Assembly (NCBI RefSeq): GCF_002920915.1
Contig: NZ_PQVF01000008.1
Span: 186,001 to 250,000 of the forward strand
DNA length: 64,000 bases
DNA from: Solitalea longa
GTDB taxonomy: Bacteria > Bacteroidota > Bacteroidia > Sphingobacteriales > Sphingobacteriaceae
Direction: 5' to 3'
Both the position numbers and the translations under genes were made by a program. The notes below the pieces were generated by a model. That model had not been told where the DNA came from, searched no databases, and saw only the letters and a program-made list of their open reading frames with translations. Positions 58,145 to 62,125 of this stretch are shown here, one piece after another. Numbering within the stretch: the stretch's first letter is position 1; the number at the start of each line of letters is the position of its first letter.

Positions 58145-58393
58145 ATGTTAAATTGCTTGCTTGATAAATTATTATCCTGTTCCGGACAACAATTTAATAC
58201 CTCAGAAGTATTAACTTCTCTTTCTTAAGTACTAATTAATACTTCGGAAGTACTAAATCCTCTTTCTCAAGTACTAATTAATACCTTCGAGGCACTAAAT
58301 TCTCCTTCCGAAGTACTAATTACTCCCATTGAACAGCTAAATTCTCTTTCAAAGGTATTAAACTACTATTTACAGGTACTAAGTCGATATTAA
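58145..58393 (+). pseudogene. Remnant heptad-repeat open frame with an in-frame stop
   Basis: An ATG at 58145 opens a frame of 27 codons that enters the repeat and stops at TAA 58226-58228. The same frame then stays open through the rest of the repeat to TAA 58391-58393. Read through, the repeat encodes 7-residue units of the type VLxxxxE/Q (VLINTSE, VLNPLSQ, VLITPIE, QLNSLSK). At the stop codon the sister units have CAA, GAA or CAG, so the TAA looks like a single C-to-T change. The frame may be a decayed leucine-zipper-like gene, or chance; no expression signal is seen. Confidence 0.45.
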
Positions 58394-58394
58394 A
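58206..58394. repeat. Nine imperfect 21-bp tandem repeats
   Basis: Units begin at 58206, 58227, 58248, 58269, 58290, 58311, 58332, 58353 and 58374, each exactly 21 bp. The best-kept part of the unit is AAGTACTAAnT; the second half varies. The exact period, with no indels across 189 bp, points to a coding or strict-spacing constraint. Confidence 0.75.
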
Positions 58395-58427
58395 AAAGCC
58401 ATTCCTCTATTACAAGAATGGCCTTTT
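58393..58427 (-). terminator. Terminator of the metal-type operon
   Basis: GCCATTC (58398-58404) pairs with GAATGGC (58416-58422), extended by A/T pairs after a mismatch. On the minus strand a U-run follows. It ends the HMA-protein gene transcript, about 60 nt past the stop. Confidence 0.65.
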
Positions 58428-58485: not shown

Positions 58486-59400
58486 CTACTGTAATACCGC
58501 AGCAGTGTACTTATTACCATCAGGAGTACTAAACTCCTGAATAAGCTTTTTCATTTGATCAGCAGAAACTTTTGTAGAATCATAAATTACTTTTGCTATT
58601 GAGGTTGTAAAATTCACTTCACTAAACTTAATTCCTTTTTGCTTGTACAACATTTTCTCAATACCTTTCGCGCAACCATCAGCACAAGTCATGCCTCCTA
58701 CTTTAAAATATACCGTTTGGATTTTTCCTTTTGAAGCAGGAATAACGGTCGCTGAACTTGCTTGTACATCACGAGGATATTGACAGCAAGAATGCAAATT
58801 ACTGTAAGCTTCAATAGTTGTTTTTTCACCTTCTGTATCGTAACCTGCAGCAGCGATAGCTTTTTGAATTGCTACTTTATTTGCAGGAGCCACATAACTC
58901 ACTTTCAATTGCTTACTTTCCTCATCCCAATCTGCTGAAGTAACCCCCTTTACTTTTTTGGTTGCTCCTTCAATATTATTCTTACACATTGAGCAATTGC
59001 CCCACACTTTAAAACTTTCGGTATTGCCATCCTGTTTCTCTGGAGCAACTGAAGTTTCTTGAAAGCCATCACGTGGATATTTGCAGCATTGATGTAATTT
59101 ACTATAAGCTTCTGTAGTTGCTTTTTCACCTTCAGTATCGTAACCTACAGCCGCAATCGCTTTTTGAATAACAGCTTTATTGGCCGGAGCAGAAAAACTC
59201 ACCTTCAATTGCTTACTATTTTTGTCCCAATCAGCTGAAACTACACCGTTAACTTTCTTGGCAGCTCCTTCAATATTGTTTTCACACATACCGCAATTGC
59301 CCCACACTTTAAAACTTTCGGTTTTTACTTCTTGAGCAAAAGCTAGTTGAGAAACAAAACAGGCAATGATAACCGATGCTATAAATTTTATCTTCTTCAT
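58486..59400 (-). CDS. Secreted triple HMA-domain protein
   Basis: 304 residues. A signal peptide (1-22, LAFAQ) sends it to the periplasm. Three HMA-like modules follow. Modules one and two are near-copies with an exact 100-residue shift: CGMC (Cys36, Cys39) and CC (Cys105, Cys106) recur as CSMC (Cys136, Cys139) and CC (Cys205, Cys206), each CC followed by xYPRD. Module three (about 231-304) has the variant MTCADGC (Cys239, Cys243). HMA domains bind Cu(I), Zn or similar soft metals. It is the last gene of a three-gene operon with a TonB receptor and a HYC_CC_PP protein. The role as a periplasmic metal carrier or donor is an inference. Confidence 0.85.
   Translation of the reverse strand: MKKIKFIASVIIACFVSQLAFAQEVKTESFKVWGNCGMCENNIEGAAKKVNGVVSADWDKNSKQLKVSFSAPANKAVIQKAIAAVGYDTEGEKATTEAYSKLHQCCKYPRDGFQETSVAPEKQDGNTESFKVWGNCSMCKNNIEGATKKVKGVTSADWDEESKQLKVSYVAPANKVAIQKAIAAAGYDTEGEKTTIEAYSNLHSCCQYPRDVQASSATVIPASKGKIQTVYFKVGGMTCADGCAKGIEKMLYKQKGIKFSEVNFTTSIAKVIYDSTKVSADQMKKLIQEFSTPDGNKYTAAVLQ
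58768..59322 (-). repeat. 300-bp internal duplication in the HMA-protein gene
   Basis: Residues 27-111 (59068-59322) and 127-211 (58768-59022) of the HMA protein are near-copies at both protein and DNA level, offset by exactly 300 bp. This points to a recent in-frame duplication. Confidence 0.75.
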
Positions 59401-59426
59401 TTTATATCTTTCTTAATCTTTGTTAA

Positions 59427-61649
59427 TTAATTTATTTTATATCTGAAACCGGTGTACACTCTTCTTCCTTCCAAAGGCCCCCAAATGTAAGAAGCATCAA
59501 AGAAGCCCTCATTAGGGTTAGATGCTCCCACAATGTAGTTTTGCTGGCGGAAGTCAAATAGATTTTCAGCACCTAAGTACACTTCAAAATTTTTCCAATG
59601 GCGGGTTAACTGCAAATTAACCATTGAATATGGTCTTGATAGCTCCTTATAGTTACTGATCTCCCCACGATAAGCCTCATCCAAATATGGCATCTTTTTG
59701 CTGCCAAACCACTGCCAAGTAACATTGGCATTCCATTTACGATTGAAAGATTCATAAAATAAGGAAGCAACCGCGCGATGACGAGGCACATAAGGTTCAG
59801 TTATTCGAACGCCATCAGATTCACGGAATACATCAAGGTATTTATAAGCAAGTTTAAGCTCTACAGGTTTTAAGATATAATAAGAAGCTTCAACCTGAAC
59901 ATTGTTAGCAAAGGAGTGCCCACTTAAATTTGAGAAGTACACTTTGGTTGGATCCGTATCATAGTCAGGAATGATTTTATTAGCAAACTGCGTTCTGTAA
60001 AGATCCAATCCTAAACTACCCTTGCGATAATTAAGTTCGAATTTTCGGTTGATGTTAAAACCATAATTCAACGCCTTTTCAAGTTCTAAAGGTTCTGTGA
60101 TTACAATTTCCCGGTTACTTACCTTGATGTTGGAGTTTTCAGCCAAAATATTCGCTGATCTGAATCCGGTTCCTACTGAAAATCGAACATCAGTATTTTT
60201 ATCAAACTCCCATTTTACATTACCCCGAGGAGTAAACACCAATTCACCGTTAGCTACATCAGCACGCAAACCCACAATAACTGAAACCGGGCGCTTACCT
60301 TTACTTGTAAAGGTATTTTCGGCAAATACACCGGGCATACTTAAATCATTGTTGAGATAAAGATCACCAAATTGCTCCTTGATCTTATCTAAACGATAGC
60401 TGGCTCCAAAATTTACTGAATTATATTTACCAAGGTTTTGATTGTAGATCAAGCGTAGGTTTAAGCTTTGTTGCTGGCCATCATCTTCTCTTAAACCATA
60501 ATATCCATCCATGTTATGCATTACATAGGTGTATTGCAAGCCAAGGCTTTTATAATTATCTGATGGCATCACAAATCCTGTACGACCGTAAAACTCGAGA
60601 CGGTTGGTAACCAATTGCTGGCCATACATAGAATGATCAGCATGAGGTTGATCAAAGTTAAAATCCACTTGTCCGCCCTGACGATCCTCATGCAAGTACT
60701 TAATAGAGTTTTGCGAAAACAAGCCATTTCCAGACTCATATTTCCACTTATTCAGCACATTGATGTTTTGAAGCATCGGGTTATCCAAAAATGAATCGCC
60801 GTTCTGATCCATTTTTTGCTTATAACGATCGATATGAAACGAGAATAAAGTATTAAGATCTTTCGTAACCTTAAGTGTTTTATCCACATTTAATTCGGCA
60901 CGGGCAAAACCATCAACATAACCATTTACAAAAAGCTTATCGGCACGCATCGGATCTTTCAACTCTACATTGATCATTCCGCTGATCGACTCGGGGCCAA
61001 AAATCACAGATCCGGGGCCTTTTACCACGTGAATTTGATCAATTTGTGTTCCCGGAATTCCATACAAGCCATACGTAGAACCTAAGCCTGTAATAATCGG
61101 TGCATTTTCAGTTAATAATTGGGTATAGGCTCCAGCCAAACCTAACACCTGCAATTCCTTGCTGCCGGTAACCCCATCGCGATAGGTAACATCTACCGTG
61201 GTATTGGTTTGAAAGCTTTCGCCTAAGTTGCAGCAGGCTGCTTTTTTAAGCTCTTTCGAAGTAAGGATCTCGGTTTTACGCGGTTGAATAGAAACCATTG
61301 AAGCTTCCCGCTGCTGCGTAATAACCACTTCATTTAACTGCTTTCCTGTTTCAATTAAAACAATGCGCAGAGGAGTATTAGAGATTACTTTTATAGTATC
61401 AGGTTGATAGCCCAAACACGAGACCACTAATCTGCGATCGGTAATATTAGTTGTTTTCAGGACAAATTTGCCATGGGTATCAGACAGGATTCCCACATTG
61501 GAGTTTATCCAAACAATGCTTGCTCCTGCAAGGGGAAGTTCCTTTTTGCTGGCGTTGCGCTCGAACACAGTGCCGCTTATTGTTTGTTGCGCGAAAACCT
61601 CAAACCCAAACGCAACTAAACATAAAAGAATAGCTAAAAATCTTTTCAT
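59427..61649 (-). CDS. TonB-dependent receptor with a CC motif (putative metal receptor)
   Basis: 740 residues. A signal peptide (1-21, VFAQ) is followed by a carboxypeptidase-D-like beta-domain (TISGTVFERNASKKELPLAG), then the plug with ELKKAACCNLGESFQT, where Cys139 and Cys140 form a CC pair right before the plug core. Next is the plug phrase GLYGIPGTQIDQIHVVKGPG, then a barrel ending in GFRYKIN. TonB receptors with this CCNL-type phrase are seen in Bacteroidota beside HMA-domain and HYC_CC_PP genes. That setting suggests an outer-membrane uptake route for a metal or metal complex such as copper. The ligand is an inference. It is 26 nt upstream of the HMA gene. Confidence 0.85.
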   Translation of the reverse strand: MKRFLAILLCLVAFGFEVFAQQTISGTVFERNASKKELPLAGASIVWINSNVGILSDTHGKFVLKTTNITDRRLVVSCLGYQPDTIKVISNTPLRIVLIETGKQLNEVVITQQREASMVSIQPRKTEILTSKELKKAACCNLGESFQTNTTVDVTYRDGVTGSKELQVLGLAGAYTQLLTENAPIITGLGSTYGLYGIPGTQIDQIHVVKGPGSVIFGPESISGMINVELKDPMRADKLFVNGYVDGFARAELNVDKTLKVTKDLNTLFSFHIDRYKQKMDQNGDSFLDNPMLQNINVLNKWKYESGNGLFSQNSIKYLHEDRQGGQVDFNFDQPHADHSMYGQQLVTNRLEFYGRTGFVMPSDNYKSLGLQYTYVMHNMDGYYGLREDDGQQQSLNLRLIYNQNLGKYNSVNFGASYRLDKIKEQFGDLYLNNDLSMPGVFAENTFTSKGKRPVSVIVGLRADVANGELVFTPRGNVKWEFDKNTDVRFSVGTGFRSANILAENSNIKVSNREIVITEPLELEKALNYGFNINRKFELNYRKGSLGLDLYRTQFANKIIPDYDTDPTKVYFSNLSGHSFANNVQVEASYYILKPVELKLAYKYLDVFRESDGVRITEPYVPRHRAVASLFYESFNRKWNANVTWQWFGSKKMPYLDEAYRGEISNYKELSRPYSMVNLQLTRHWKNFEVYLGAENLFDFRQQNYIVGASNPNEGFFDASYIWGPLEGRRVYTGFRYKIN

Positions 61650-61726
61650 TAAAAATCAAATTCTGTTTTAACAATAAAATACAGGTAAGTCCATAAGGTT
61701 TACCCTAAAGTTTAAAACAGAAATGA

Positions 61727-62125
61727 TCAGATAAGAAATACTTGTGTGAGATGCCGAATAGAACAACTTCGGAGAGGAGGACTCTTTAAATTAAATGAAA
61801 CGAGTGTTTCAGGCGCTAATTGTGCATCAAGCGTAAAATGGAATGCAACTAAAAACAACTGTACTGGAAACAATTTTACCGTTTCAGCATGTGCTAATGA
61901 AAGATAACTGTCTTCAATTTTAACAATTTTAACATCGTTACGACAGCAGTCATCCTCAGGGACGCTACTATCTTTATCATCATCACCTTTGCTACAGCAA
62001 CATTCAGGCTTAACAGCAATGCTTGTATCCTGCATTGTAGTACCGCAATAATGCGTGTATACACCTACTCCTATTGTATTAAGGAGAAAGAATAAACACA
62101 TTATTATGGCTACAATTTTTTTCAT
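61727..62125 (-). CDS. HYC_CC_PP-family small protein
   Basis: 132 residues from the ATG at 62125; the 31 codons upstream in frame are not part of the family. A leader or membrane helix (about 1-22, IVAIIMCLFFLLNTIGVGVY) is followed by HYCG (25-28), then a CCC cluster (42-44), then a DDCC pair (60-61) in an Asp-rich region, and later SPP. The HYC, CC and PP marks name the family, which is unknown in function. The cysteines suggest metal binding in the periplasm. It is first in the operon with the TonB receptor (77 nt) and HMA protein. Confidence 0.75.
   Translation of the reverse strand: MKKIVAIIMCLFFLLNTIGVGVYTHYCGTTMQDTSIAVKPECCCSKGDDDKDSSVPEDDCCRNDVKIVKIEDSYLSLAHAETVKLFPVQLFLVAFHFTLDAQLAPETLVSFNLKSPPLRSCSIRHLTQVFLI

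Follow-up and report, generated by a model that had tools for sequence, protein, structure and literature searches.

Outer-membrane copper uptake is poorly understood, and a three-gene locus of Solitalea longa raises a question about it: is the small cysteine-containing protein encoded first a further metal carrier, or a sensor that governs the genes behind it? The locus lies in a 64,000-nucleotide (nt) stretch of contig NZ_PQVF01000008.1 (positions 186,001 to 250,000; GCF_002920915.1), hereafter the window. Three minus-strand open reading frames (ORFs), separated by gaps of 77 and 26 nt, encode a protein of the family HYC_CC_PP (hereafter HYC), a TonB-dependent receptor and a protein with HMA domains.

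61727..62125, minus strand: HYC_CC_PP gene, first of the operon and proposed copper-sensing leader; 132 amino acids (aa); NF047658, 54.1 bits against a cut-off of 28
59427..61649, minus strand: TonB-dependent receptor of the clade with a Cys-Cys pair in the plug (CC-plug clade); 740 aa; PF00593, PF07715, PF13715
58486..59400, minus strand: HMA protein with a signal-peptide-like N-terminus and three modules; 304 aa; three PF00403 stretches

The length of HYC was counted from ATG; an alternative TTG start would give 163 aa. We read the locus, with confidence somewhat short of even, as a copper-homeostasis operon that would comprise a copper-responsive leader gene, an outer-membrane importer and a periplasmic HMA carrier. 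NF047658 is a named family without an assigned function in the family library, and the name HYC_CC_PP was found in no paper of the literature searched. No study of this three-gene unit was found there either (subscription papers and preprints lay outside the scope of that search).

The conservation of the unit was measured in 149 class-level genomes, which were searched with HYC, the receptor (E 1e-25) and the HMA protein of the window (E 1e-6). Matches were obtained in 94, 119 and 103 genomes, respectively. The coordinates of 132 HYC, 103 + 47 receptor and 145 HMA places were then joined, where the 103 receptors are the listed rows of at least 337 bits and the 47 the weaker listed rows, with at most 7 candidates scored per genome; the HMA counts are lower bounds, and chance expectation was computed for uniform placement in 4-Mb genomes. 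Among the matches listed, HYC lay within 3 kb of 58/103 receptors (0.21 expected), an HMA gene within 3 kb of 66/103 (0.25 expected), and both partners within 3 kb of 47. HYC was upstream of the receptor and on the same strand in all 58 co-located cases, while the HMA gene was found on either side (36 upstream, 30 downstream). The preliminary description had proposed a conserved soft-metal unit of outer-membrane receptor and periplasmic HMA protein, and had named co-occurrence no better than chance as the outcome that would count against it; the observed co-occurrence clearly exceeds chance, and the unit stands. Of the 47 weaker receptors, 45 had neither partner, one had both and one had HMA only, indicating that the partnership belongs to the CC-plug clade, which is present in at least 99 of the 149 sampled genomes of the class. 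Clustering of neighbour families around 80 named receptor loci (flanks up to 10 kb, some stretches ending at contig ends) gave the same picture: HYC-like proteins (53) and HMA proteins (51) were the most frequent neighbours, and unrelated families reached at most 11. The loci in these counts are partly non-independent. A tie of the unit to heme-copper oxidases was also considered and rejected; COX1 occurs in 144/149 genomes, so co-presence is uninformative, and 4 of the 5 genomes that gave no COX1 match have the CC-plug receptor.

The metal of the unit is probably copper, because a copper-ATPase gene stands beside a paralogous operon and CusA genes stand beside lone HYC copies. The paralogous operon, on contig C34 of the same genome, has the order HYC, receptor, HMA, with a receptor 74-77% identical to the window copy. 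The operon begins 161 nt after a P-type ATPase gene whose product scores above the cut-off of the copper-ATPase model TIGR01511 (566 bits, cut-off 397). That gene is itself preceded by genes for a CusB-like adaptor and for two small proteins. CusA-type genes also follow directly on two further HYC copies, one on C34 and one on C3; the latter lies behind a CopA-type ATPase gene. The preliminary description called the system stand-alone, with no adjoining copper gene; this holds for the window copy but not for the paralogue on C34 or the HYC copies on C34 and C3. Outside this genome, 55 receptor-free HYC copies were sampled, one per genome, from 73 lone copies (one of them, L236, has a receptor fragment 95 nt downstream). 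A CusA gene was found within 8 kb of 37 sampled copies; in 31 cases it comes directly after HYC, on the same strand and within 1.5 kb. Seven copies had none of 13 reference proteins nearby. The RND model used here covers CusA and CzcA alike and so cannot tell copper from zinc.

Each of the two CusA-type genes in this genome is broken at the same position into a pair of ORFs that overlap (L043:2811-6069 and L044:13491-16650); in the C3 copy this position falls at residues 426/428 of TIGR00914. A small His/Cys-rich ORF ending in WQPPRS lies upstream of an RND gene (L042:7374-7685); it is possibly a second kind of leader, and a search of NCBIfam with it gave no match. A short HMA-AraC fusion is encoded ahead of a CopA-type ATPase (L044:8925-9500), and 8 of the 80 named receptor loci have a regulator of this type downstream or close by, within 10 kb.

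HYC stands first in its operons, the position of copper leaders of the CruR and CutF type. The gene after HYC is on the same strand in 92 of 93 loci (quartiles of the gap, 77/88/111 nt), while a same-strand gene within 50 nt upstream was found for 6/86 HYC genes versus 395/1117 other genes there; gene calls were the longest ATG ORFs, and the gaps are approximate. Four elements of this gene and the gap behind it are relevant to a leader function.

62045..62053, minus strand: HYC motif, residues 25-27, read directly from the sequence
61943..61948, minus strand: last Cys-Cys pair, residues 60-61; C61 invariant and C60 in at least 90% of a 72-sequence alignment
61775..61780, minus strand: Pro-Pro codons, residues 116-117, proposed arrest motif; P116 and P117 each in at least 90% of the 72 sequences
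61650..61726, minus strand: gap between HYC and receptor genes, 77 nt; RNA predicted to form a two-level stem-loop, paired over about 61656-61726

The 72 diverse members have a mean column identity of 21%. Invariant H25 and C27 reflect the selection of members, which were picked first for H[YF]C and carry it in 72/72 cases. CC and PP lay outside this selection, although the family search model itself favours them; besides the positions given above, C44 reached at least 90%. CC is present in 115/118 HYC members. In 81 of 97 members, PP follows the last CC at a distance of 52-59 residues, whereas the spacing from HxC to CC varies from 19 to 66. Cysteines followed at a set distance by Pro-Pro are a further property of CruR/CutF-type leaders, and it is found here. 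About 30-40 residues fill the ribosome exit tunnel. With PP at the ribosome active site, the CC site would therefore have just emerged, as expected for a nascent-chain sensor.

Downstream of the HYC stop codon, the RNA also differs from controls. The 77-nt gap of the window is predicted to fold with a minimum free energy of -17.1 kcal/mol (z -3.41; 0/200 shuffles equally stable). The paralogous gap on C34, also 77 nt, gave z -3.41; its outer stem resembles that of the window gap, and its inner hairpin differs. No fold was predicted for the 26-nt gap between receptor and HMA genes. Across loci, z values were obtained from dinucleotide shuffles, with the same place in same-strand gaps of 60-130 nt as controls. 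The 54 nt after the HYC stop had a mean z of -2.07 (n=62) versus -0.86 in controls (n=178; p 1.7e-9), and z was below -1.5 in 37/62 HYC gaps versus 42/178 control gaps. The signal was sharp (adjoining windows, z -0.08 and -0.57) and was seen in both locus types, with z below -1.5 in 24/45 receptor-type and 11/17 lone copies. Hairpins of -10 kcal/mol or lower with a T run were enriched in HYC gaps as well, in 42/73 versus 62/209 control gaps, and in 48/83 versus 81/415 shuffles. Intrinsic termination as the general mechanism of these gaps was nevertheless dropped, given that many listed hairpins have no T run. The predicted structure would correspond to the regulatory RNA structure behind leaders of the CruR/CutF type.

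The two other proteins would supply the transport part of the unit. Their elements are as follows.

61230..61235, minus strand: Cys139-Cys140 pair of the receptor plug, invariant in 18/18 aligned receptors
59068..59319, minus strand: HMA module 1, CGMC with a C-terminal CC tail; 67/84 residues identical to module 2
58768..59019, minus strand: HMA module 2, CSMC with a CC tail, read from the sequence
58534..58713, minus strand: HMA module 3, CxxxC (CADGC), read from the sequence

The AlphaFold2 model of the receptor (predicted local distance difference test, pLDDT, 78.7; predicted template-modelling score, pTM, 0.74) suggests an ordinary TonB-dependent transporter fold with plug and barrel. The sequence itself scores above the cut-offs of PF07715 (plug) and PF00593 (barrel). 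The fold matches of the model include Cir (Z 32.8, 561 residues, root-mean-square deviation (rmsd) 2.8) and BtuB (about Z 32), and OprC was matched with Z 28.8 over 545 residues (rmsd 3.0). CrtA was not among the best 50 fold matches listed, which excludes nothing. The N-terminal domain is the carboxypeptidase-regulatory-like PF13715. The distinctive plug Cys-Cys pair defines the clade: the ACC motif occurs in 80/80 named loci, a count that is not independent since the search pattern contained ACC, and a weaker receptor of the same genome (C35:117811) has no CC. In the model, the pair sits between two short helices at the plug start (residues 131-136 and 142-148), a stretch that we take to face the periplasm in Cir and BtuB. 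Such an orientation would suit a hand-over of metal to the HMA protein. The preliminary description had this pair at the plug entry; the pair is confirmed, but that location is doubtful in the light of the model and the assumed orientation. The sequence of the window receptor holds no CxxxM, and no invariant His or Met was found among the 18 aligned receptors. A DxNxDG(F)xD stretch at residues 281-289, with D281, D285 and D289 invariant in 18/18, resembles a calcium loop.

The HMA protein matches CopZ-like, MerP-like and ATPase-HMA-like families, and by its HMA domains with CxxC it would be a CopZ/MerP-like metallochaperone. Three HMA modules had been described, and three are present, with the CxxC pattern confined to modules 1 and 2 and CxxxC in module 3. 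Modules 1 and 2 are a tandem duplication (67/84 residues and 203/252 bases identical).

The gene content, its conserved order, the association with copper genes, the motif spacing and the enrichment of hairpins are observations; the metal, the transport direction, ribosome arrest and control of expression are inferred in the mechanism proposed here. The receptor would be a TonB-dependent importer that carries free or chelated copper through the outer membrane, and the secreted HMA protein would take the copper over in the periplasm, possibly from Cys139-Cys140 of the receptor. HYC would work mainly in cis, during its own synthesis and export. Once clear of the ribosome, its His/Cys site (HYC, CC, CC) would meet copper, which would alter translation at the Pro-Pro motif 52-59 residues on, and the dwell time of the ribosome there would, via the hairpin past the HYC stop, set expression of the downstream genes. 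Because this proposed leader also stands at the head of Cus efflux operons, one signal could lower import and raise export, by analogy with CruR, where copper turns expression off, and CutF, where it turns it on. In its widest form, the proposal is that HYC_CC_PP represents a Bacteroidota-wide class of co-translational copper sensors, sequence-unrelated to CruR and CutF and with an arrest geometry of its own (Pro-Pro at 14-17 codons from the end of the frame, and a hairpin immediately past the stop), which would govern both import (CC-plug TonB receptor and HMA) and export (Cus) operons; the receptor would then be a new outer-membrane copper importer that passes its metal to the HMA protein via the plug Cys-Cys. 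We put this forward tentatively, as an idea that invites some doubt.

HYC might instead be an ordinary periplasmic copper-binding chaperone or buffer that is the first gene by chance, with a hairpin that merely sets dose or stabilises the mRNA, a possibility to be taken seriously although we would not call it probable. The N-terminus of HYC is signal-peptide-like, and its AlphaFold2 model (mean pLDDT 77.2, pTM 0.46) has a folded N-terminal part, in which residues 1-40 and 61-70 reach block means close to 90 and strands around the HYC and CC sites are predicted with confidence. From this model, HYC is possibly a real periplasmic protein; Foldseek gave no match to it at E 0.001 or better, which is still compatible with a known fold. 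Several further observations weigh against the mechanism proposed above. No PP occurs after residue 60 in 19/118 members. The window HYC has no RAPP, and its proline motif is not at the extreme end, since 15 residues follow PP (14-17 in 70/97 members); past PP, the 72 members have a majority consensus FLI, which an arrest peptide acting at PP would not need. The first 54 nt past the HYC stop of the window are alone unremarkable (z -0.25), and a T run follows the hairpin in some HYC gaps only. Among the listed receptors, 45/103 lack an NF047658 match within 3 kb, and 26/103 have neither partner nearby. A relationship of HYC to DUF2946, the family of CruR and CutF, was also looked for and went undetected: PF11162 was not among the best 25 of 38 families listed for the 72 HYC proteins (the best was DUF6769, for 2/72 members at 0.0011), no match to it was found in the genome up to E 0.1, and hhalign of HYC against one CruR-like protein of Cupriavidus metallidurans gave a probability of 0.6%. 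A chaperone, on the other hand, is at odds with the very few conserved positions of HYC, with its fixed place upstream of a receptor whose HMA gene may lie on either side, and with the excess RNA structure directly past its stop. The preliminary description saw HYC as a third carrier. This now seems less likely: HYC heads two kinds of operon, and it is probably not a carrier because of its operon-head position, its few conserved residues and the predicted hairpin behind its stop. A leader-sensor role is likelier, and we regard it as a strong hypothesis, not as a result.

The purpose and the metal of the unit can be read differently, too. It could serve detoxification rather than supply, capturing surplus copper or silver in the envelope, with a receptor that has another substrate or is a sensor. 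This would agree with the copper-resistance-like island around the C34 operon (CusB-like adaptor, P-type ATPase) and with the Cus efflux operons headed by HYC, yet a P-type ATPase cluster was found within 10 kb in only 9/80 named loci, no efflux gene stands beside the window copy, and TonB receptors normally import; we consider it rather unlikely. That the true substrate is zinc, silver or mercury appears improbable. A range of soft metals binds to HMA and CC sites, and the MerP and zinc-ATPase HMA matches of the HMA protein are nearly as good as the copper ones, whereas among the neighbours the curated models recognise copper ATPases and RND proteins of the CusA/CzcA family, the latter by the model that is blind to copper versus zinc.

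The gene layout given in the preliminary description, with three minus-strand genes, gaps of 77 and 26 nt, cysteine pairs and a terminator, is present throughout.

58392..58422, minus strand: terminator with a 7-bp stem (GCCATTC/GAATGGC), 11-nt loop and T6, read directly from the sequence

An automatic scan missed this terminator (58422-58392), the loop of which exceeds the length the scan permits. Short repeated stretches of the aattagtactt type lie 3' of it (window 58240-58400). The neighbours tested in the window are a diheme cytochrome, a protein of the beta-helix type and a type IX secretion system plug protein, in line with the preliminary description, which saw no copper gene next to this copy.

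CruR (DUF2946) of Bordetella pertussis heads a three-gene operon with the copper receptor CrtA (BfrG), which was shown to import copper, and a PepSY_TM protein; nascent CruR senses copper by CXXC, which relieves arrest at RAPP (PMC9426467, PMC12914433), and its in vitro arrest is reported in PMC12992588. A CruR-like gene in C. metallidurans likewise heads a receptor gene. The Solitalea operon resembles this one in its order of a small exported Cys protein, a TonB-dependent transporter and a third protein, and both first proteins have a conserved spacing from Cys to Pro-Pro (45 residues in CruR, usually 52-59 in HYC). In contrast to CruR, with CXXC and with RAPP 3 residues from its end, HYC has CC pairs, no RAPP and 15 residues after PP; the receptor clade has an invariant CC, whereas CrtA has no conserved Cys and a ligand site that includes His358; and an HMA gene takes the place of PepSY_TM. 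OprC, a copper receptor of Pseudomonas aeruginosa with a CxxxM-HxM motif (PMC11213822; see also PMC8610252), shares the TonB-dependent fold with the window receptor model but not the motif: the window receptor has neither CxxxM nor His or Met that are invariant among its relatives, and its CC lies elsewhere.

In the CutF-CutO-CutG system of Rhodobacter capsulatus, which copper turns on, an intergenic stem-loop is present (PMC9973294). HYC is like CutF in being a small exported protein with a putative copper motif, a C-terminal Pro-rich motif, a place at the head of a probable copper operon and a predicted stem-loop before the second gene. The CutF-like survey counted 5,334 proteins, 40% of them from Bacteroidota after normalisation (19% raw), with RND and TonB-like neighbours (PMC9973294); HYC was compared with this set by its published description. 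Many CutF-like Bacteroidota proteins are already counted there, so this kind of leader is known and the HYC form would be new. Bacteroidota leader ORFs ending in proline before secDF or secA have also been described, which makes leader ORFs with C-terminal proline a known feature of the phylum (PMC10987492). A survey of RAPP/RGPP leaders reports none before copper genes in Bacteroidota (PMC12992588). What HYC has in common with CruR and CutF is position, Cys and Pro-Pro geometry and RNA structure; it differs in sequence family, in having no RAPP and in prolines that are not at the extreme C-terminus. A family known by name alone thus becomes a testable sensor hypothesis, and if that is true, the CruR/CutF principle would have arisen in a distinct family of proteins and within a phylum for which the RAPP/RGPP survey reports no copper-related leaders (PMC12992588).

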